Shown: piece after piece, positions 1,732-27,704 of the stretch
How positions within the stretch are numbered: position 1 is the stretch's first letter
How the letters are laid out: each line of letters starts with the position of its first letter
From: Diphasiastrum complanatum
Lineage: Eukaryota; Streptophyta; Lycopodiopsida; Lycopodiales; Lycopodiaceae
DNA length: 64,000 nucleotides
Reading direction: 5' to 3'
NCBI GenBank assembly: GCA_029204225.1
Contig: CM055113.1
Span: 20,047,798-20,111,797 of the forward strand
Notes under the pieces: generated by a model
Databases searched by the model: none
Told to the model about the DNA's origin: nothing
Seen by the model: the letters and a program-made list of their open reading frames with translations, nothing else
Program-made: the position numbers and the translations under genes

Positions 1732-2403
1732 TCATGAAGTAGAGGGATCATCTACAATGATATCTGTAGTAGAGGAAAGAACTAAAGCCATGAGGGCTCG
1801 AGCCTGATTTGCCAATAATGGTGTATGATAAAACACATCAATAGGCTCCCATGTGGCCTCCTCAACAGGACGACCATCCCACTGGATCAAAAATTGAATC
1901 TGTCGGCAGCGTCGACTATGGTGAAGGCGAACCTGGTGAATGGCAGCTGGTAAGAAAGGGAACAGCTCAGGATCAACATCATGGCGACGAAGGGAACATT
2001 TTGGCCGCGTCATCAGAAACCAAGCAATATGGAACAGCCAAGAATACCAAGGAACCAGAAGAAGATCAAGCAGCAACCAGGAATGCCAAGGTATCTGTAA
2101 TGCCCAAGCTAGTAGAGGATCAGCCCAAAAGATAGGGACATCATACCAAGGTATCCAAAAAACCCGAGAAGGTAGAACTGCATCAGCAACGGGAAGCCAA
2201 TAAGGAAACTGGAAAAGAGATGGACACTCATCGCGAATAGCCGCATCATACACGTAACCATCAACCATATGTGCAAGGTGAAAAGGTAGCAGCATCGGAA
2301 GACCAGCACCAAAGAGTAGGAACATAAGTAGGAGGACAAGCACGCTGTAACAGCATGGAAAAGCAAGCGATATGCCAGGAAACATGGAGCATAAAGAGAT
2401 CAT
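1732..2403 (-). CDS. Chromodomain-bearing C-terminal ORF of gypsy-like element
   Basis: The last third of this 223-residue frame contains a recognisable chromodomain core (FLIQWDGRPVEEATWEP, roughly residues 165-181), preceded by a basic strand (VRLHHSRRCRQ). In chromoviral gypsy elements this module ends the integrase and guides insertion by binding chromatin. The residues before it are Trp/Leu/Phe-rich and repetitive (WHSWLL, HIAWF), not an integrase fold, and look like antisense or low-complexity sequence read in frame. The true N-terminal boundary is unknown. I am fairly sure of the chromodomain and unsure that the rest is translated. Confidence 0.6.
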   Translation of the reverse strand: MISLCSMFPGISLAFPCCYSVLVLLLMFLLFGAGLPMLLPFHLAHMVDGYVYDAAIRDECPSLFQFPYWLPVADAVLPSRVFWIPWYDVPIFWADPLLAWALQIPWHSWLLLDLLLVPWYSWLFHIAWFLMTRPKCSLRRHDVDPELFPFLPAAIHQVRLHHSRRCRQIQFLIQWDGRPVEEATWEPIDVFYHTPLLANQARALMALVLSSTTDIIVDDPSTS

Positions 2404-3856
2404 CCTGACAAAGGATAGCTAAAATGGAGAAATATGCACCAGCATGGTCAAAAGCCCAAGGTATCCATAAGGCCCATGAATGAAAAGTAGCAATGGCACA
2501 CGGTACCCTCAAGGCCCATATTACGAGAAGAGCAACATGCCAAAAGCTCCAGAAGGTCCAAGAAATCAATGCAATCATCTCAAAAGACATGATGCATGAA
2601 AACAGTAGCAACAAATCTAGAAATAGTAGAGGCCCCAACTAAAAAACTGTAGCCAAAAAACTCATCCAGAAAGACCTCATACGGACATACCAATCCATCA
2701 TAGGATACACCAAAAACGGATGGAGAATCGGATGACCCATCGGAACTGGCCGCAAGTGTAATCCCAAAGTACACACCAGGCGCACAAGTGAGGAATAGAA
2801 GAAATGCACTGGAACGAGGAACAAGATCCGCAACATTAGTAGCAGCATCGGAGCAATATCCACGTGTAGCTAGGAATGAGTATCAAAGCACATATGAGCA
2901 ACACTGAAGTATATGGCGACAACATCCCCAAAAACTATCCAAGAGAGGAGAAGGAACTCTCTCAAGGTACCCTGATGGTCTCGGAACACCAGAACAAAGT
3001 GGCAACTCAGCATCGGAGACCAAGCGATATGGAGCAACCCGAAATGATGGGGAACCTGAAGATCACCCGGACAAACAGTAGCTGGAACGGAGGCAATAAC
3101 CCAAGCCATCAAGATATGCCAAGCCTGACAATGAGCAACAATCCAAGGCACAAATAGAGAGCCACATGCATAATCATAGAGATATCGGCACCATAGGCGA
3201 TCAGTAATATGGAAAAACCAGCACCAATCAACAGGTCCAAATGAAAACCAAGCTATATGTAATAACCAGGAATGCCATATAGCCATAGCATCGGCATGGA
3301 CTGCAGGAAACCTATATGTAGAAACACAAGGAGACTGAAGGATCCCTGTATACTCATCTAGAAAAATCCCTGCATATAAATACCCTAGATAAGTGATAGT
3401 GACCATCTGGCAAATATCCTCGGATGGAAAATGTGTAACGGTAAGGGCGAAAGGCTCATGAATCATGTCAGGAATCGTAGAAATATCATGAGGCAGATTA
3501 CAAACCTCAAGCAGAGATCCATGGAATAAAGCAAAAGAAGATACAACCTGATCACCAATAGCGAGGGCACCAGCAAACGTGGACCTGTGAAGAACCCCAT
3601 AGAAATCAGCAGGAACATCGGCCATAACGGACTCAAGAGATGGAGATATAGAGACCAATGGAGAAGATATTGTACCAACCACCGAACCAGGAGGGCTATC
3701 TGAAGTATGCGCAAAAGCAATAGTAGAAATACCACCAAGGTATACGGCCTCAATATCAATGAAACCAGGAATGACCACCGAATACGATATCTGTGAATCA
3801 AGGCATATAGACGCAAGGCACGTAGCAACAACCTGTAAATCCGGAGCAGCATCAAC
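2404..3856 (-). repeat. Degenerate repetitive filler where RT-RNase H-integrase would lie
   Basis: About 1.45 kb separates the protease frame from the chromodomain frame; a complete RT-RNase H-integrase block would need about 2.5 kb. No RT motif such as YxDD and no integrase H2C2 or DDE motif is seen in any minus-strand frame. On the plus strand, related short phrases keep returning (for example variants of CAAGCGATATGGAGCAAC and ACCAGGAATGCCA), as in a decayed minisatellite. An open frame of 302 residues (2870-3778) crosses it without recognisable domains. Confidence 0.5.
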
Positions 3857-5074
3857 CTAAGTAAGAGGACCCACGGACGGTGAAAGTGAAGCAGCAACTA
3901 ATGTACTCTGAATGGAAAGAAGAGCTGCATCATGAGCCTTTGGCAGGCTACGCATAAACTGCTTCCCAGTAACCAACTGATAGTCACCCTGGGAATCAAT
4001 ACCAGAAAGTAAGTGATGTCGATCAACATGTGTAAAAGACAGTGTCTGATGAGAAAGATCCACAGCAACAGTACCAAGTGACAAAAACCAATCTGCACCA
4101 AAAATAATGTCATAGCGCTCCAGAGGAATAATATAGAAATCTGCCTGTCCAGAGAAGTCACCAATGCTATAGTCCAAGCCCAGAAACATCTGAGAACTGG
4201 AAAAAGAATGGGAACGAGCAACCTCGACACTGAGAGATTGTGTAGCAGAAATAGGTGTAGCATGAATCCTGGTGGAAATGTAACTGCTAATAAATGAATG
4301 TGTACTGCCCGTATCCACCAAAGCACTATACTCTCGCCCCAAAATGCGAACACGTAACCGAATAGAACGAGGACCAGGATGCCCACTAGCCCAAGTAGCA
4401 TAAGCAAGCTGTGCATGGCAAGCGGCGGAAGTAGGATCATCAGGAAGCGGGTCAACCAGCTCATCAACAGAATGTGGGTCAGGAGTATCAAGAATCTGGA
4501 TATAAACATCAAAATCATCAGGAGTAAGAGCCTCATGGTAAAAAACAGCGGTGGGAGGACCAAGAGGAACGGTAGTAGAAGAAGCCAAAGTAGGAGAAGC
4601 AGTGGAATGAGAGCAAGAAAAACGAGAAGAAGTGGATAACTCAGGATACTTATGCTGCAAGGTAGTAGCCAAGGAGATAGCATCTGAGAGAGTAAGAGAC
4701 TGAAAAGATGAGACATCATACCATAAGGAGTCTCTAAGACCGACAATAAAACGTGAAATAAGCTCTGTAGGATGAAGATCAGTAAAAAGGTAGGAAAGCT
4801 CAATAGACTGATCAATATAAGCAGCCAAATCACTAGTATGGTGAAGGCTACGAAACAGATCACGTTGGCGAACCAACCACTGTGGGTCAATCATAGCCAT
4901 ACGAAGATAATGACGAAAAGTAGGCCATATATGTAACCCCTCACGAGTAGGCTCAGAGCAATAAACATGCCACCAAGTCTGAGCTCTACCATCTAAATGT
5001 AATGCGGCCAACTGCACTTTCTGGGTTTCAGTCTTGGGATATATAAGAAAATAGGTCTCTAATTTAAAGAACAA
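3857..5074 (-). CDS. Gag C-terminal part plus retropepsin-like protease
   Basis: The 405-residue frame opens with a typical gypsy gag core (KVQLAALHLDGRAQTWW, about residues 19-35, then an LxRFIxGL stretch near 106-113). It ends in an aspartic protease: active-site loop LVDTGSTHSFIS near residue 252 and the paired DIIFGADWFLSLG near 322. Gag is the capsid-like structural protein and the protease matures it. No CCHC zinc knuckle is seen between gag and protease. The upstream half of gag (5059-5451) is in another frame, so one indel separates them. Confidence 0.8.
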   Translation of the reverse strand: MFFKLETYFLIYPKTETQKVQLAALHLDGRAQTWWHVYCSEPTREGLHIWPTFRHYLRMAMIDPQWLVRQRDLFRSLHHTSDLAAYIDQSIELSYLFTDLHPTELISRFIVGLRDSLWYDVSSFQSLTLSDAISLATTLQHKYPELSTSSRFSCSHSTASPTLASSTTVPLGPPTAVFYHEALTPDDFDVYIQILDTPDPHSVDELVDPLPDDPTSAACHAQLAYATWASGHPGPRSIRLRVRILGREYSALVDTGSTHSFISSYISTRIHATPISATQSLSVEVARSHSFSSSQMFLGLDYSIGDFSGQADFYIIPLERYDIIFGADWFLSLGTVAVDLSHQTLSFTHVDRHHLLSGIDSQGDYQLVTGKQFMRSLPKAHDAALLSIQSTLVAASLSPSVGPLT

Positions 5075-5451
5075 TTTTCCAAGATATTCCCGTCAGACGA
5101 ACCAGAATAAATAGTAAGCTGGATGCGATCACGAAAATCATGAGCAAAATGGGGCTCAGGATTACCTGAAAAAGTAGGAGAAGGAAATCCTGGTGGTGCG
5201 TAGGGAAATCCAAGTGGTGGTACAGAAGACCCGAAAGGAGACCCATAAGGACTAGCAGTATATGAAGAGAGACCAAACGTACTACCAAAAGCACCTCCTG
5301 AAGATGAAGCAGGAGCAGGCGTACTCAAAATAGGAAATAAAGGTGCTTTACCAGGACAATGAAGAATGTTTGGGGGGATGGTATCCCCTCGTGGTAGGAT
5401 AGTCTCAAGGCTAGAAAGAACACGATCAATACGACTCTCAAGATGATCCAT
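5059..5451 (-). CDS. Gag N-terminal part, frameshifted from the main gag frame
   Basis: This 130-residue frame starts MDHLESRIDRVLSSLETI, a short coiled-coil start as in many plant gypsy gags. It continues through a Pro/Gly/Ser-rich linker and ends with a gag lead-in (YSGSSDGNILE). The expected continuation (LFFKLETYFLIYPK) lies in a different frame from 5074 down, so a single-base change broke gag at this point. It could be a sequencing error, but other decay in the element makes mutation likely. Confidence 0.65.
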   Translation of the reverse strand: MDHLESRIDRVLSSLETILPRGDTIPPNILHCPGKAPLFPILSTPAPASSSGGAFGSTFGLSSYTASPYGSPFGSSVPPLGFPYAPPGFPSPTFSGNPEPHFAHDFRDRIQLTIYSGSSDGNILENCSLN

Positions 5452-19549: not shown

Positions 19550-19925
19550 CTAAACAACAATCCCTAACAAATCGCAGTTGTGTAGCATCCACTTGAACTC
19601 GTGTATAATGCCAGGAATATAGTCCGCAGGTTCGTGGTCCCGATACGAACCCAAGGGATCGTGCCTGGCGCGATTTGGGTATCGCTCAGTCAAAATGGCC
19701 CGTCGCAGGGTGCAAAACGCGATTAGGTCTAGCGAAATGGGCATAGTAGTGTGTAGTTCTCGGGGCCTCCCTGTAGTGAATGACACAGTTTTGCATAAGT
19801 AGTTAGTAAGCTGTTGAAGTTCATCCGGGGGAAAACCAATCTCATCATATAAGACATAGTAATGTGTAGGTCTTGTGGTTCCCTGTCTTGAGAGCTTGTT
19901 TGCCTTCTGGTGAGCATTCATTTCT
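19550..19925 (-). pseudogene. Argonaute PIWI-domain fragment
   Basis: A minus-strand frame encodes GTTRPTHYYVLYDEIGF (19832-19882) followed by DELQQLTNYLC. This is the conserved C-terminal PIWI block of plant Argonautes, GTSRP.HYHVLYDE.GF...ELQ.LTN.LC. The His of RPTHY is at the position of the third DDH catalytic residue, while the following conserved His is Tyr. A few bases later the next family block, HYYAHFAR (19728-19751), is found in another frame, so a frameshift separates them. Only about 100 residues are covered and there is no start codon or intron context. It is a pseudogene fragment lying on the intron's antisense side relative to no known host exon. Confidence 0.7.
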
Positions 19926-20147
19926 CCCAGAAACTTGTGGTCCTGAGAGCTTGTCAGTCTCCTCCCTCATACCGGATGGGATGCTCTAACACTGAGCTAT
20001 CCGCCCTGTTTGATAGTTCTCTCTAGAGTGTGGATTGATATTCCAACACCCCCCCTCAAGCCACACTGGTTGGGGTCCTAGTTGTCACCTGCCCCACAAC
20101 TTGGGCCACCTAACCATGGCTTTGACACCATGAACTGTTAGGTCTAA

Positions 20148-20163
20148 CTTGGCTCTGATACCA
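20148..20163 (-). other. Primer-binding site of the TRIM
   Basis: The minus strand reads TGGTATCAGAGCCAAG directly after the LTR end. Its first 12 bases are the standard complement to the 3' end of plant initiator tRNA-Met. Confidence 0.85.
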
Positions 20164-20192
20164 TGTTAGAAATCCATAAATCATAATATGGA

Positions 20193-20265
20193 TGGACAGA
20201 CTAGGATTCGAACCCAGGACCTCCCTCATACCGGATGGGATGCTCTACCATTGAGCTATCCGCCC
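20193..20265 (-). other. tRNA-like Pol III unit inside the TRIM LTR
   Basis: Reading from 20265 on the minus strand: a 7-bp acceptor stem GGGCGGA/TCTGTCC (G-U pairs allowed), D stem GCTC/GAGC, box A TAGCTCAATGG, T stem CTGGG/CCTAG and a perfect box B GGTTCGAATCC. The anticodon arm is irregular (TCCC/GGGA around an 11-nt loop), so it is not an ordinary functional tRNA. The boxes could drive Pol III transcription. The truncated partner LTR (19961-20048) retains the box A half, with one change (GTG for ATG). Confidence 0.8.
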
Positions 20266-20301
20266 TGTTTGATAGTTCTCTCTAGAGTGTGGATTGATAT
20301 T

Positions 20302-20741
20302 TGTAGGAAAGCAAGAGACAAGTCACCAAGATCTAGTTATCAATCAATCTCCACAAGAAACAAGAGAGAAGAGGCTGGGCGCCCAACTCTAAGAGAGAGA
20401 GAGAGAAAACAGCAACAAGAGCAATGGAGAGCCAAACTGTATAAAATGGAATACACAATGAGCATCTAAGTACTCTACCTGGATGTGACCAAATGCCACC
20501 AAACCCTAAGGTTAACCACTTACTAAATGTAGGGCACCCCCAAAAGTCAAGATAGGACCCCTAAACAAAATTAGACCCCTAAGGACCCACGAGTCAGTAC
20601 ATGACCAAAATTGGGTCCAACTGAACTTAAGACAAACTTAAGATGGCCTAAATAACTAAATACTCATGGTTACACAAATCTCGACCTTTTGGGTCAAAGT
20701 AACCTATGGATTAACTTCAGCATAGTCATTTATTTCTAACA
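20302..20741 (-). repeat. 3' LTR of the copia element
   Basis: Starts TGTAGGAAAG and ends TTCTAACA on the plus strand; partner of 25797-26244. It contains a short (GA)n near 20391-20407. Confidence 0.92.
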
Positions 20742-20777
20742 CCCTCCTTAAATGACAATGCAAAACTGAAATCTTCA

Positions 20778-23700
20778 CTATGTAACAAAACCAACACGTG
20801 GTATCAAATTTAAAGCTTTGCATAAAGCTTCAAATCTGACTCTAGGCAACGCCTTAGTGAAGAGGTCCGCAATATTATCCTCCGTAGGACAATATTCAAG
20901 TAAAATGTCGCCATCATGAAGTCTCTCCCGAACAAAGTGATAATGGATCTCGATGTGCTTCGTCCTCGCATGAAAAACAGGATTCCGTGCAATGGCAATA
21001 GCACTCTGACTATCACTCAACATAAGAGTGGCTGAGGGCTCGCCAAACTTCATGTCAACAAGTAGTCTTCTCAGCCATAAACACTCTGTCGTGGCTGAAA
21101 ATATCGCTCTATATTTTGCCTCACTAGAAGAAGTAGCAACAGTGGGCTGCTTTTTACTTGACCACGAAATTGCAGAATTACCATAAAAAAAGCAATGTCC
21201 ACTTGTAGAGCGTCTAGTGTCTTGATCTCCACCCCAATCCGAGTCACTAAAACCAACCAAACATGCATCATCACAAGCAAGAAAAACCAGTCCATGACTT
21301 CTTGTTCCTTGAAGATATCGAAAGATCCTCTTCAACGCTTTCCAATGTGATGTCATCGGGGCATGCATGAATTGACTCATGAGTGAGACACTATAAGAAA
21401 TGTCCGGTCTTGAATTACATAGGTAAATGAGACAGCCAATAGCTTGACAATATAAAGTAGTGTCAAATGATTCACCATCACCTTGACTACTTAATTTCAG
21501 ACCTGTCTCCATAGGTGTAGCAACCGGCTTGCAATCTTCCATCTTGAACCGCTTCAAAATCTGCCCAATGTAGCGTTCTTGAGAGATGAAAATTCCAGCA
21601 CCTTTTTGTACAAATTCAAGACCAAGATAAAAGTGCAATAGGCCTAAATCTGAGGTTTCAAAAACCATACCAAGATCAAGTATTACGGCATCAATCTGCT
21701 GCTCATTACTTCCCGTAATAATAATATCATCAACATAAAGCAAAATAATGATGATATAATCTGAAGTATGCTTGACATAAAGAGTAGATTCGCTAGGACT
21801 ATTAGTGAACCCTCGATCACAAAAGTAGGCATGTATCTTTTGATACCAAATCCTCGGAGCTTGCTTCAGTCCATAGAGTGCCTTCTTGAGAAGACAAACT
21901 TTATCTTCTTGGCCTTCAACCAAAAAACCAGCAAGTTGTTGAAGGTACACTTCCTCATTGAGATCACCATTGAGGAATGTTGTCTTTATGTCAAGTTGCC
22001 GCAAACGCCAACCAAAGTGGGCAGCCAAAGAGGTTACTACCCTCACGGTAGTCATCCGAGCAGTAGGAGAAAAAGTCTCCTCATAATCAATCCCTTTTTG
22101 CTGAGCATAGCCTTTGGCAACGAGCCTTGCCTTGTACCTTTCAATGGTACCATCTGCCTTACACTTGATTTTGTATACCCATTTAGAACCAATTGCCTTC
22201 TTCCCATGAGGAAGATCAACAAGAACCCAAATCTGGTTCTTCATAAGTGAGTCATACTCATCTTGCATCGCATCCTCCCAACATTTTACTCCCTTGGCCT
22301 GCTCATAGAAAACAGGTTCTTCTGCAACATCTACATGAGATGTAAGAGCAAAATCTGAAAAATCAGCATAGTCCACTGATTTTGTAAAGGCACGTGTATT
22401 TCCATCATAAAATGAACTTACTTTGCTGTCCCACAAAGTCGACAACAGCCACCGTGGGACTGTTTTGGGCTGTCCAACAGCCATGTCTCTTCTTACAATT
22501 TGTTGTCCAAGATCTTCCGACACCGCACTTGGCTGTCCAAGATTTTCCAAAACTGGTCCTTGCTGTCCAACAGTTCCTGCAGGCTGATTTTGAGCAACAA
22601 CGAGCGGTTCTTGATGAACATTAGGCTCTAAACTTGATGAGGTGTTGGGCAGGTCGAAACTGGTTGATTGCTGCCCCTTATCTCCAACAATAGAAGATGG
22701 TACCAAATCTAGAAAAACTTCAACATTCACACTATGTGGGCTGTCCCCCTTCAAGATATGAGTTGGGGCCACATCCAATGAATTCTTTTCATCAAAATGC
22801 ACGTCACGCCTAACAATAATCTTATTAGTGCTCAAATTGAACAGCCTATAGCCTTTGCTTTCACTACTATAGCCAACAAAAAAGCATTTAACTCCTTTAT
22901 CCTCAAGCTTTGTACGAAGTTTATTTGGAACAAAAGCATAAGCCGTACAACCAAAAATGCGAAAGTGAGAGATTGTAGGCTTCTTTCCATACCAAACTTC
23001 ATAAGGAGTTAATACTTTCAATGCTTTAGTAGGACAACGATTGCTTATATATGCTGCTGTTATAACCGCTTCAGCCCAAAACTCGTGAGGCAGCCCCTTT
23101 GCTTTGAGCATGCAACGGGCCATCTCCATGAGTGTGCGATTCTTTCGCTCGGCAACACCATTTTGTTGAGGCTTATAGGGAGTTGTCATTTGATGTAGAA
23201 TTTCCTTTTCTCGAAGAAATGCACCGAACGTATTCTTAATGTATTCCCCTCCTCGATCGGTGCGTAGGGTCTTCAAAGAATGCCCAAACTGATTTTCCAC
23301 CATTGCTAGAAAATCTTTGAAACGTTGAAAAACTTCCGATTTAGCCTTCATAGGATAGATCCATGTAAAACGGGAAAAGTCATCAATAAAAGTCACAAAA
23401 TAGATGCACTTTAAAATGGATTCGGTCCTCATTGGACCACAAACATCACTATGAACCAAATCAAATTTATCAAGAACCCTTATAGTTCCATCAATTGGAA
23501 AAGGTTTCCTTTGAAACTTTCCAAGTATGCACCCCTCGCATACATGCCCTTCCGGCAGCTCAATAGTAGGAATGTCTTCTACCATATTAAATGTCTTCAG
23601 CTTCTTCAAACTTGCAAAGTTGAGATACCCAAACCTTGCATGCCACAATTCAGCCAACTCCAATGATTGTGATGTAGAAGCAACAAGACATGTAAAGGGA

Positions 23701-24116
23701 ATTCGTCGCTCATAGGTATCCATAATGAATAAGCCAGCATGCATCGTTCCCGAAACAATAATCAAGAGTGATCTTTTAGGATCCTTGACAAGAAACTTAT
23801 CTTCTTTGAACTCAACAACTAGTCCTTGCTTCAACATAGTTGAAACCGAAAGAAGATTCTTCTTGATTCCCGGAACATAAAGCACATTCTTAATGTACTT
23901 TTCTTCACCATTAGGCAAAATGATGGCTACAATTCCAATTCCATGAATAGAATAAGATGCATCATCCGCACATTGTACCTTACTTCCATTTTGCACTTTT
24001 ACTAATTTAGTAAATGCTTCTTTGCGAGAAGTCATATGACGAGTAGCACCACTATCAATCACCCATTCAATGGGCTGAAAATCAGCAACTTGCAAAATAG
24101 AATCTGAATTCCTCAT
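20778..24116 (-). CDS. Copia Pol polyprotein (PR-IN-RT-RH)
   Basis: 1112 codons, uninterrupted. Protease active site DSGA at residues 21-24; integrase zinc region WHARFGYLN...CEGCILGK, then a DDE core with HSDVCGPM, LRTDRGGEY and the QQNGVAERKNRTLME block; RT with KARLVAKGYAQQKGIDYEET and catalytic YVDD at residues 794-797; RNase H with SDSDWGGD, SSSEAKY and TKHIEIHYHFVRE. It replicates the element through reverse transcription and integration. A typical RT motif reads LDIKTTFLNG where most copies have LDVKTAFLNG. The frame is not joined to gag: gag ends in a different frame just upstream. Confidence 0.93.
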   Translation of the reverse strand: MRNSDSILQVADFQPIEWVIDSGATRHMTSRKEAFTKLVKVQNGSKVQCADDASYSIHGIGIVAIILPNGEEKYIKNVLYVPGIKKNLLSVSTMLKQGLVVEFKEDKFLVKDPKRSLLIIVSGTMHAGLFIMDTYERRIPFTCLVASTSQSLELAELWHARFGYLNFASLKKLKTFNMVEDIPTIELPEGHVCEGCILGKFQRKPFPIDGTIRVLDKFDLVHSDVCGPMRTESILKCIYFVTFIDDFSRFTWIYPMKAKSEVFQRFKDFLAMVENQFGHSLKTLRTDRGGEYIKNTFGAFLREKEILHQMTTPYKPQQNGVAERKNRTLMEMARCMLKAKGLPHEFWAEAVITAAYISNRCPTKALKVLTPYEVWYGKKPTISHFRIFGCTAYAFVPNKLRTKLEDKGVKCFFVGYSSESKGYRLFNLSTNKIIVRRDVHFDEKNSLDVAPTHILKGDSPHSVNVEVFLDLVPSSIVGDKGQQSTSFDLPNTSSSLEPNVHQEPLVVAQNQPAGTVGQQGPVLENLGQPSAVSEDLGQQIVRRDMAVGQPKTVPRWLLSTLWDSKVSSFYDGNTRAFTKSVDYADFSDFALTSHVDVAEEPVFYEQAKGVKCWEDAMQDEYDSLMKNQIWVLVDLPHGKKAIGSKWVYKIKCKADGTIERYKARLVAKGYAQQKGIDYEETFSPTARMTTVRVVTSLAAHFGWRLRQLDIKTTFLNGDLNEEVYLQQLAGFLVEGQEDKVCLLKKALYGLKQAPRIWYQKIHAYFCDRGFTNSPSESTLYVKHTSDYIIIILLYVDDIIITGSNEQQIDAVILDLGMVFETSDLGLLHFYLGLEFVQKGAGIFISQERYIGQILKRFKMEDCKPVATPMETGLKLSSQGDGESFDTTLYCQAIGCLIYLCNSRPDISYSVSLMSQFMHAPMTSHWKALKRIFRYLQGTRSHGLVFLACDDACLVGFSDSDWGGDQDTRRSTSGHCFFYGNSAISWSSKKQPTVATSSSEAKYRAIFSATTECLWLRRLLVDMKFGEPSATLMLSDSQSAIAIARNPVFHARTKHIEIHYHFVRERLHDGDILLEYCPTEDNIADLFTKALPRVRFEALCKALNLIPRVGFVT

Positions 24117-24355
24117 AGATGTACAGTACTAGTAGAAGCAATATTAGACACAAAAGCATAGTCTTGGTTGAAGAGATCACCACTAGCTTCAAGCTCTTGC
24201 TCCAAAGTAGCAAGTGAAGCACTAGTATCAATTCCTTTACTCTCCTCTTTCGCAAGCTTCTTCTTACAATCCTTGATGAAGTGCCCATACCTTTTGCAAT
24301 AATGGCACTTCCCTTTCTTCTTTTGAGTGTTGACATCTTGACTTCCAACGGGCTT
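24117..24355 (-). pseudogene. Gag nucleocapsid part after a stop codon
   Basis: Directly after the gag stop, the same frame continues with a CCHC zinc knuckle (CHYCKRYGHFIKDC, with CX2CX4HX4C spacing) and an acidic tail that stops at TGA overlapping the start of pol. Pol lies in another frame. The zinc knuckle binds element RNA in intact gag. It is untranslated here unless the stop is read through. Confidence 0.75.
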
Positions 24356-25084
24356 TTACTCATCCTTGGAAGGAGGCTTCCCCTTTCCTTTTGACTTGCC
24401 TTTGCCATTGCCTTTCGTGAAGAAAGCTTGATCTTGTTGAGTGTCACCTGCAAAGTTTTGCCTCGTTTGCTCCTCTTGAAGAAGCAGCCCAACAAGTTCA
24501 TCAAAGGAGAGTTGTTGTCCCCTAAGAGAGATACTCAAAGATGAAACAAATGGAAGATAAGATGAAGGTAATGAGTTGAGAGTAATGGAAACAAATTGAG
24601 CATCCTCAATTATCTCATCAATATTGAGAAGCTCCTCACGAAGATCCTTGATCTTCGTCAAGTGATTGGTCACTTGATCCCCTTCTTGCATCTTCAACAA
24701 AGAAAGCTGATTTCTGAGATACACCACTCTTGCTGGATTTTTGACTCTATACATAATATAAAGTGTATCCCACGCACTTTTAGATGTCTTACAAGACCTA
24801 ATATGAGGTAAGATAGATCTTTTCACAGCAAGAGCAACCATAGAATGTGCTTGTGCATCCCTTCTATCCCACTTCTTTTGTTCTTCCGAAGATGTAGAAG
24901 ATGATGATCCACGAGGTGTAGGAGGTGCCAAAGACGGAGGCCTTTCCTCATCACCATTGACCAAATCCCACAGCCCTTTCGCTATGAGAAGATTCTTCAT
25001 CATGTAACTCCACAAGGAGTAGTTTGTGCCATCCAACCGATCTTCACTAAACAAAGAACCGATAGCTTCCGATTTTTTAGCCAT
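24356..25084 (-). CDS. Copia Gag, ending at an early stop
   Basis: 242 residues from ATG 25084, the start that matches copia gags (MAKKSEAIGSLFSEDRLDG, then NYSLWSYMMKNLL). The UBN2/retrotran_gag type core follows: SAWDTLYIMYRVKNPARVVY, LRNQLSLLKM and SYLPFVSSLS. The end is Lys/Gly-rich (KGNGKGKSKGKGK). The TAA at 24356-24358 removes the zinc knuckle, which continues in frame. It forms the virus-like particle shell in active relatives. Confidence 0.85.
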   Translation of the reverse strand: MAKKSEAIGSLFSEDRLDGTNYSLWSYMMKNLLIAKGLWDLVNGDEERPPSLAPPTPRGSSSSTSSEEQKKWDRRDAQAHSMVALAVKRSILPHIRSCKTSKSAWDTLYIMYRVKNPARVVYLRNQLSLLKMQEGDQVTNHLTKIKDLREELLNIDEIIEDAQFVSITLNSLPSSYLPFVSSLSISLRGQQLSFDELVGLLLQEEQTRQNFAGDTQQDQAFFTKGNGKGKSKGKGKPPSKDE

Positions 25085-25796
25085 TACCTCCAACAAAATT
25101 TCAGCTTGTAGTAAATAGGAAAGAGAGCCTTTCCACAACCAAATCTACTCAAAAATTTGCAGCAAACAAAGAGCTGAAAGTAGGAGCACAAGATATCTTT
25201 CAATCTGCAACCAAAGTGCCCAGAAGATAATGGATAGATGGCTGTCTTTCTACACAAAAAAACCAGCTTCTTGAAAATTAGGTTAGCTTCGATTGAAGCC
25301 TACACCAAAACCCAATTAGGAAGCCAAATAGTGTGATCAACACACACTCCAATAGGGTTGTTGAAAGCACCCTACTACTTGCTGAGAATCTGCAAATTTC
25401 CAGCCACAAGTTGACCTAACCCTGAATAGGGTTTGCTGAATTTTGGGCGCCCTCCTACACAAATGCAAACCTGAAAACAAAAACAGCAAGATAAGGAGAC
25501 ACGACAACCAAAAAACAGTTGCAGATTTTTGGGCGCCCTCCTCCAAACAAAACTTGCTGAAAACTGGTTGCATAAAATCAAATTTGAGATTCTGATTTTT
25601 GGGTGCCAAAAATTGCTCCTCCAAGGTCTTTGATGGCTGCCCTCCTTCAACCTGAAAAGAGACAAAAAAGCTGATCCAAACTCCACTTGAAAAGATCAGC
25701 AAGATGCTGAAATTTCACAACAAAAAGCAGAGAAGCTCCTCTTCTGGTAGGGCGCCAACAAACAAGCTTGTTGCAGATCGGGCAGCTCTCATACCA
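25085..25796 (-). other. Copia 5' leader and primer-binding site
   Basis: The minus strand begins with the primer-binding-like site TGGTATGAGAGCTGCC at 25781-25796. The roughly 700-bp leader then repeats short phrases such as TGGGCGCCC and TTTTTGGGTGCC several times. No gene is seen in it. Confidence 0.75.
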
Positions 25797-26244
25797 TGTA
25801 GGAAAGCAAGAGACAAGTCACCAAGATCTAGTTATCAATCAATCTCCACAAGAAACAAGAGAGAAGAGGCTGGGCGCCCAACTCTAAGAGAGAGAGAGAG
25901 AGAGAGAGAAAACAGCAACAAGAGCAATGGAGAGCCAAACTGTACAAAATGGAATACACAATGAGCATCTAAGTACTCTACCTGGAGGTGACCAAATGCC
26001 ACCAAACCCTAAGGTTAACCACTTACTAAATGTAGGGCACCCCCAAAAGTCAAGATAGGGCCCCTAAACAAAATTAGACCCCTAAGGACCCACGACTCAG
26101 TACATGACCAAAATTGGGTCCAACTGAACTTAAGACAAACTTAAGATGGCCTAAATAACTAAATACCCATGGTTACACAAATCTCGACCTTTTGGATCAA
26201 AGTAACCTATGGATTAACTTCAGCATAGTCATTTATTTCTAACA
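25797..26244 (-). repeat. 5' LTR of the copia element
   Basis: Partner of 20302-20741. It holds a slightly longer (GA)n tract near 25888-25908. This copy should provide the element's promoter. Confidence 0.92.
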
Positions 26245-27704
26245 TAAGCGTTCACCTCTCCCAAATCCTCTGGTGAGCATTCACTTCTTCGAGACAGTCA
26301 TGGGCAGTAGTTGGGTTTGTTGCAAATTTTTTTGCAAATTTAATTAGGTACCTGTTTGTTTTTTTTTAACAGGAGGGGGCAGGTGGGTGCCAGACACCCT
26401 CTGATAATTAATCCCGGGGAGGGGGGGGTGGTTAGGGGGAGGAAAATTGTTTTTATTTCGTTTTGGGGATGTGGGACAGTGAGGGGAGGGGCCCGTATTT
26501 TTTTTTTTTAAAAGAAAAAAAATAAAAAATGTCGGACGCGTCCGGACCCGGACGCACCCCTAAGGCATCCGCGTCCGGACGCGCTTCCTTAGGTCCAATC
26601 AAATAGTAGATATCTTCATATTTCTTAAAAGTGAGTCTTAAGAACTAACTTACGAACATAGCGGCATTATTCAAGTATTAAAATTTCTGATGGCAATGTC
26701 TTGCAAAGAAAGCTTCATGAAGTGTTTTTTCCACTGTTTTTCTAACAAGTAAGATTTCGGTTTACATAATTGTTCCTTCCAATGTCCATCAATTTAATTG
26801 TAGAAAAGTAAAGTATCTCAAACTAAATGCTGGATTACTTGCCCATCAGTTGTAAGCAGAATGCCTGTTTTCAAGTACATGCAGGGGTCAGTAATTGATC
26901 CACCTATGTACCCAAAAATTCCCCTCGTTTTGCTTTGATACCTGATTTTCTTTTAATTAAAAAAAAAAAAGTTCCGACCCAATACGTTCCGGCCCAAAAA
27001 GGTCGGAACAGGTTTCTAAGATCTACATGTGTGTGTGTGTGTGTGCGCGCGCGCGCGAGTGCGCGTGCGCGTGCGTGCGTGCGTAATTATAATATCGATA
27101 CAAGGAAATAAAATTAAACACGATGAAAAAATGATTTCATGGTCAAAATAGAGAAGTATGTTAAGTCAGTCCTTAATAACACTGGCTACAATGGATATGA
27201 GAGCTTACACAGTCTTTCACATCCTGAGGTCTTGAAAATCTGGATTGTTCCAATATATGAGGGACCTCCCAAAGGGATACTTTCATAATCTGACTCTATA
27301 TATAAAAAAGGAGGAGATTCTTGAGAAACGAACTAGATCTACAGCAATAATAACTCCTACTACCACACAACTAAATCTTAAAAGTTGAAAAGCAAAGTTC
27401 TCCTTGACAGAACACTATGGAAAGTTTATTTGCATATGCATATTATGAAAATTAAAGGGATTTGTTTTCTGATACATGAAAATTTTCCGTATACAAAATT
27501 TGTGCAATTGGATAAAAATTCATCCTAAATCAAAAATGAAGGGCTAGAGAAACTATATGACCTCAAAAATATAGCTATTTTAGAAACGCTAAGCATTGTC
27601 AATTGAACAAAAAGATATGTGAAACACACACAAATTGCACCAGACAGCTTTGTTATAATGCTTATAGATGAAGCTTCTATACAACAACGAAATCAGCATT
27701 CAAC
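26245..27704. other. Intron with GC-rich palindromic patch; no gene
   Basis: Rest of the 9.6 kb intron. It contains G-rich stretches near 26371-26435, a GC-rich patch with repeated CGTCCGGAC-type motifs at 26530-26590 and a small GTTCCGACC/GGTCGGAAC inverted pair at 26972-27009. No coding sequence is recognised. Confidence 0.6.
27024..27085. repeat. Alternating purine-pyrimidine (TG/CG) tract
   Basis: Two nearly continuous alternating blocks (27024-27057 and 27059-27085) of TG and CG steps inside the long intron, the pattern that favours left-handed DNA. Confidence 0.9.

Follow-up and report, generated by a model that had tools for sequence, protein, structure and literature searches.

A Helenus-type TRIM family with tRNA-like LTRs and its chimeras with a Ty1/copia family in Diphasiastrum complanatum

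At 19961-20301 on the minus strand, the 64,000-nt stretch of Diphasiastrum complanatum DNA analysed here (the window) holds a single damaged copy of an abundant, gene-less and tiny miniature LTR retrotransposon (TRIM) with a tRNA-like unit in its LTRs. By the features described in the available text of Kojima 2024 (PMC10886601), this is a new Helenus-type family, referred to as family 1. We are fairly confident that it is a Helenus-type TRIM with Pol III boxes in the LTR, mobilised by Copia via a common PBS, and that the window copy is a decayed member. The preliminary description knew of no TRIM with a tRNA-like LTR, a view contradicted by the same paper, where such TRIMs are named Helenus and reported from fungi, animals and one plant. 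The kind itself has been known since 2024; new is a Helenus-type family with unusually direct evidence of its helper.

On the minus strand, the order is Copia LTR end (20302), TRIM LTR positions 7-144, PBS and internal part, and TRIM LTR positions 1-88 (Table 1), the last located at 20048-19961 and broken inside the tRNA-like part, as originally described. Two direct repeats, 19961-20042 and 20220-20301, share 98% identity across 82 nt. One correction to the first reading concerns the initial six bases (TGTTGG), which are absent from the 5' LTR of the window; here the Copia LTR directly abuts the TRIM 5' LTR at 20302. Box A was placed by tRNA numbering, and the PBS is presumably of the initiator tRNA-Met type. 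The adjoining element belongs to a Copia family (window-type Copia) with Pfam gag, rve (integrase) and RVT_2 domains. Its junction with TRIM position 7 could stem from insertion of Copia into the TRIM, with AATAT as one half of a duplication, but the two Copia flanks differ, the far one being GCTTA. A join resembling this junction was seen in L002 and L003, and the stretches 19906-19940 and 26269-26303, which flank the TRIM and Copia on either side, share 80% identity over 35 nt.

Table 1. Features of the TRIM copy and the adjoining Copia element, in window coordinates.
Feature	Position	Strand	Basis
5' LTR, LTR positions 7-144	20164..20301	-	sequence and comparison with family copies
tRNA-like unit, LTR positions 43-115	20193..20265	-	Rfam RF00005 (49.8 bits) and ARAGORN
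Box A region, tRNA positions 8-19	20247..20258	-	sequence; placed by tRNA numbering
Box B GGTTCGAATCC	20204..20214	-	sequence
CAA triplet, LTR positions 37-39, 4-6 nt before tRNA-like unit, candidate Pol III start region	20269..20271	-	sequence
Internal region, too short for coding	20049..20163	-	sequence
Primer-binding site (PBS) TGGTATCAGAGC	20152..20163	-	sequence
Polypurine tract (PPT), G-rich, GAGGGGGGG, end of internal part	20049..20057	-	sequence
3' LTR, positions 1-88 only, broken within tRNA-like part	19961..20048	-	repeat comparison
Ty1/copia element, 3' LTR abutting TRIM copy	20302..26246	-	Pfam domains and sequence comparison
Copia 5' LTR	25797..26246	-	
Copia internal part	20744..25796	-	
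Copia 3' LTR	20302..20743	-	

The genome (1.74 Gb) was searched with exact patterns for the PPT/LTR and LTR/PBS junctions, which gave 654 and 486 occurrences, respectively, and 0 for either reversed control; both patterns miss diverged copies. The concern that the LTR boundaries might not recur is answered by the 654 PPT/LTR junctions. On contigs C1 and C2, 35 of the 55 PBS junctions listed have a listed PPT junction no more than 200 bp away, and this pairing suggests a family size of roughly 1000 units in the genome. An exact 22-base LTR pattern had 0 matches in viral contigs and prokaryotic genome contigs. From a set of 119 loci, with six overlapping loci dropped, 85 clusters had both outer LTR ends and 66 of these proved to be simple copies with two LTRs, whose 5-bp duplications match exactly in 49 and show one mismatch in 8. 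Stricter ends left 59 copies, and removal of repeats of one locus 54. Exact target duplications flank 41 of the 54 and are absent in 13; 49 match with at most one mismatch. Mismatched left/right flanks used as controls gave 3 exact matches in 2862 pairs and 71 with at most one mismatch. The element measures 404 bp in 34 of the 54 copies and 392-407 bp in the others. Relatives of ~404 bp consist of 144-bp LTRs and a 116-bp internal part with PBS TGGTATCAGAGC and a G-rich PPT, which bears out the description of a miniature LTR retrotransposon without coding capacity, with a short LTR of ~144 bp and ~115 bp between LTRs. Divergence between the two LTRs of an element has a median of 3.5% (minimum 0.7%, maximum 9.0%; 54 copies), and the median K80 of 0.036 corresponds to ~1.4 My at 1.3e-8 and 4.5 My at 4e-9 substitutions per site per year. 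An apparent sharing of the ends 19961 and 20301 among genome copies was an artefact of the query.

The tRNA-like unit of the window copy scored 49.8 bits with the Rfam tRNA model (cutoff 29, E 1.1e-7), and ARAGORN placed a minus-strand tRNA at 20193-20265. The fully pairable 7-bp acceptor stem and the perfect box B noted earlier were both confirmed, with G-U at two of the seven pairs. The stability of the fold is unexceptional (z -0.62; 50 of 200 shuffles as stable), so the case for tRNA descent is built on the boxes and the covariance score, and stability, not being above that of shuffles, was dropped as evidence for tRNA origin. The proposed genome check yielded two-LTR copies with recurring 5-bp duplications and the tRNA-like part in 39 of 40 LTRs, the Rfam cutoff being passed by both LTRs at 19 of 20 loci selected among the two-LTR copies (single miss in L068). 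ARAGORN called a tRNA in 167 of 185 complete LTR copies, every one in the sense orientation stated for the window unit; of the 185, 141 have the exact D-arm/box A string and 131 an exact box B, the latter count rising to 177 when one mismatch is allowed. The isotype was Thr(ggt) in 132 of the 167 called copies, with nine other labels among copies. Position 33 of a tRNA is normally U, and in the window copy it is C (anticodon at 34). The unit may not represent a functional tRNA, a possible further likeness to Helenus. A donor search that took in 20 of the 63 listed genome tRNA matches reached a best identity of 0.66, spread over several isotypes including one tRNA-Cys, and no donor tRNA is therefore named. 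At the Rfam cutoffs only tRNA matches, and none to 5S rRNA, were obtained in the window and the 20 loci. Variability within family 1 is 0.037 in the tRNA-like part and 0.022 and 0.021 in the LTR before and after it. Among the decaying copies there is no sign of constraint on the tRNA-like part, which is if anything more variable, and within-family conservation of the boxes was dropped as support.

A second tRNA-bearing TRIM family (family 2) is present in the same genome, where four copies were inspected (L081, L161-L163), all with 5-bp duplications; its genome search listed 86 matches, and 40 of 673 first-look candidates were scored. Its LTR of 153 bp and internal part of 73 bp were measured in L162, with equal LTR spacing in L161 and L163. 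The duplications of L161-L163 are ACTAT, TTAGG and GTTAG, and all six LTRs are above the Rfam tRNA cutoff. In L081, a family-2 TRIM with tRNA-like units of 50.3 and 32.2 bits, flanked by ATTCT on both sides, is interrupted by a family-1 array that has the duplication GTGGT. Positions 1530-2310 of this locus form a nest of tRNA-bearing TRIMs with older relatives alongside, which have weaker tRNA matches (1893-1955, minus strand, 34.0 bits; 2237-2309, plus strand, 31.6 bits). When one copy of each family was compared, the tRNA-like unit was the best conserved part, with 58 of 74 columns identical and 0 of 500 shuffles as good; the part upstream of it showed weak similarity (9/500), followed by the internal part (20/500) and U5 (34/500).

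The tRNA-derived sequence in each LTR provides boxes A and B. In the likely mechanism, Pol III would start just upstream of the tRNA-like unit of the 5' LTR and read through into the 3' LTR, and the resulting RNA would retain the promoter. This RNA would enter particles of Ty1/copia elements having the same PBS, where the Copia enzyme would reverse transcribe it, with integration producing 5-bp duplications. Judged from sequence, Pol III transcription of the TRIM is plausible. The string CAAA[C/T]A occurs in 175 of 185 LTR copies within their initial 50 nt. Arabidopsis start sites are, in the available text of PMC11700998, CAA triplets located up to 10 nt upstream; since such a CAA precedes ~36-45% of tRNA genes there, the triplet, together with boxes A and B, lends weak support to a Pol III start. 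Missing Pol III terminators were dropped as evidence: TTTT is absent from 48 of 54 family-1 elements and, about as often, from 515 of 1000 shuffles of one element. We give a smaller, though real, share of belief to the alternative that the tRNA-like part, as a relic, has no role as a promoter and that Pol II transcribes the TRIM from its LTR as in ordinary TRIMs. It is favoured by the lack of constraint within family 1 and by family 2, where TTTT near the LTR end, before the PBS, in five of the six LTRs of L161-L163 could halt Pol III early. Against it, the tRNA-like unit, followed by its upstream stretch, is the best conserved LTR part between the single copies compared of the two families, and exact boxes A and B occur in 141 and 131, respectively, of the 185 LTR copies; common ancestry alone could explain part of this.

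Chimeric insertions give direct evidence of a mobilising partner, the Copia family adjoining the window TRIM copy. Exact junctions of TRIM LTR with Copia PBS were found at 9 genome places and those of Copia LTR with TRIM internal part at 25, some possibly duplicates in either set, and the reversed controls gave 0. Among 210 TRIM LTR 3' ends (overlapping loci dropped, other duplicates kept), 114 continue into the TRIM internal part and 88 into flanking or other sequence, and the remaining 8 are joined to a PBS-like start with other sequence behind it. Two of these eight (L113, L115) begin with the TRIM's own internal start, matched for a short way only, and were dropped as longer elements. In L092 and L119, two others of the eight, the TRIM LTR runs into a Copia internal part that is 95% identical to the 20302-26246 element over the first 400 bases. 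Two arrangements were observed: Copia LTR - TRIM internal - TRIM LTR - Copia internal (L119, L142, L143, L148), and TRIM LTR - Copia internal (L144, L145, L146, L147, L149). At 5.4 kb downstream of L144, contig C6 has a Copia LTR, a shortened form of the TRIM internal part and TRIM LTRs. On C14, L146 is followed 9.4 kb downstream by a junction of Copia LTR with TRIM internal part, and the end is a TRIM LTR.

Ten composites were examined, and the four for which both ends were found all have matching 5-bp duplications: L092 at positions 143-2788 (GTGCT), consisting of one TRIM unit, a 1059-bp Copia piece and four further TRIM units; the composite from L119 to L141 (AAGCA); C6 from 19783360 to ~19789644 (L144, L155; TAAGT); and C14 from 20039229 to 20049000 (L146, L160; ATTGC), the interiors of the last three being partly read. 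Each of the four was therefore probably integrated as one chimeric cDNA, a direct trace of reverse transcription shared with Ty1/copia. No Copia was present at the first predicted end on C14 (L152), so this composite likely carries an extra insert of ~4 kb. For L003, L143, L145, L147, L148 and L149, no Copia or TRIM end was found at the predicted far-end place, and these six consequently say nothing on duplications. An origin of the composites by recombination between neighbouring genomic insertions instead of reverse transcription appears improbable to us: the available text of Sabot and Schulman 2007 (PMC1950507) attributes the vast majority of then-known complex elements to genomic recombination, and six far ends are missing, but all four two-ended composites have matching duplications and many joins coincide exactly with the PBS edge and involve only a short stretch of common sequence. 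Away from their ends, PBS and PPT, the TRIM and the Copia resemble each other no more than by chance (best E 0.93).

Composites that resemble single integrations point directly to a helper family, and LTR likeness between TRIM and Copia seems unneeded for helper use. Chimeras with other PBS-bearing elements (L010; L062/L065, which look like one duplicated locus; L087) mean that window-type Copia need not be the sole helper. In two further loci, the TRIM internal part is preceded at the PBS by a Copia integrase-like coding stretch, as read from sequence (L025), or by another LTR-like end (L031). In LTR elements, plus-strand transfer relies on pairing at the PBS copy. If two RNAs that have a PBS in common were packaged together, a strand of one could pair with the other, such cross-pairing would fuse, at the PBS, one element's LTR to its partner's internal part, and repeated joining would string (internal-LTR) units into TRIM-only or mixed arrays. 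L079 is a TRIM-only tandem array with three internal units. As a tentative extension, in which we place rather little confidence, TRIMs with Pol III-type LTRs and PBS-sharing Copia may constitute one exchange pool, with PBS strand transfer stringing (internal-LTR) units of either in one particle and TRIM LTRs becoming the outer LTRs of long Copia bodies (C6, C14). If true, this would be a route by which a Pol III promoter meets an autonomous body, and one to new LTR families.

Family 1 resembles Helenus, as presented in the available text of PMC10886601, in being a non-coding TRIM of less than 1000 bp that has a PBS, a PPT and two LTRs, each holding tRNA-derived sequence that includes boxes A and B; its 5-bp duplications are those of plant and fungal Helenus, and its tandem arrays recall those of LTR-11_DR. 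A Copia link was also proposed there for the Helenus of fungi, on the grounds of similar PBSs, the length of the duplications and one common internal region; composites with a Copia partner, as found here, are not reported in that text, which states that nothing indicates the helper of Cassandra. It groups Helenus with Cassandra and Ajax as TRIMp3 and names Selaginella (Helenus-1_SMo) as the only plant. In the literature searched, mostly without subscription papers, no seed-plant Helenus was reported, and the part seen of a 2026 meeting report (PMC12859917) restates the class only. Cassandra, in the available texts of PMC10886601 and Gao 2016 (PMC4717578), shares the captured Pol III gene sequence in a non-coding element's LTR and the tandem arrays, but here the captured gene is tRNA-like and not 5S. 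Tandem TRIMs are common according to PMC4717578, whose main text, as far as available, does not mention tRNA; the LTR-(internal-LTR)n arrays are alike. The template-switch complexes with duplications of PMC1950507 are likewise complex insertions within one 5-bp duplication. Unlike in either source, as available, units of TRIM and Copia, which are otherwise dissimilar, are joined here at a common PBS.

The tRNA-scoring LTRs of the two families, which from the junction counts probably number thousands in the genome, would inflate its tRNA counts and call for care in tRNA annotation. A SINE that entered a single LTR of one copy, a case raised in the preliminary description, has almost no chance of being the correct explanation of the tRNA-like part: tRNA-like heads are typical of SINEs, but 39 of 40 LTRs pass the tRNA cutoff, both at 19 of 20 loci, and instead of the tRNA head and LINE-type tail of a tRNA-derived SINE, which has no LTRs, there is a recurring LTR frame with PBS, PPT and 5-bp duplications.

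Several minor observations concern rearranged copies and the surroundings. L015, L036 and L038 have an identical break inside the tRNA-like part and identical downstream sequence, so the truncated TRIM seems to ride within another repeat. In L111, TRIM LTR and internal part are joined at the PPT to a different LTR start (TGTTAGGGACCC...), with another PBS further on; this start also occurs in L164. The family-1 internal part contains, at window positions 20118-20130 (minus strand), another PBS-like stretch in decayed form, TGGTGTCAAAGCC; over the surrounding 21 nt, identity to the family-2 PBS start in L161 is 95%, and the stretch is perhaps a relic of an old PBS-joined chimera. Elsewhere in the window, gag and aspartyl protease domains of another LTR retrotransposon at 3857-5092 (minus strand) and, at 1732-2418 (minus strand), a sub-threshold match to a chromodomain suggest that the pieces at 1732-5092 belong to a Gypsy-type element.
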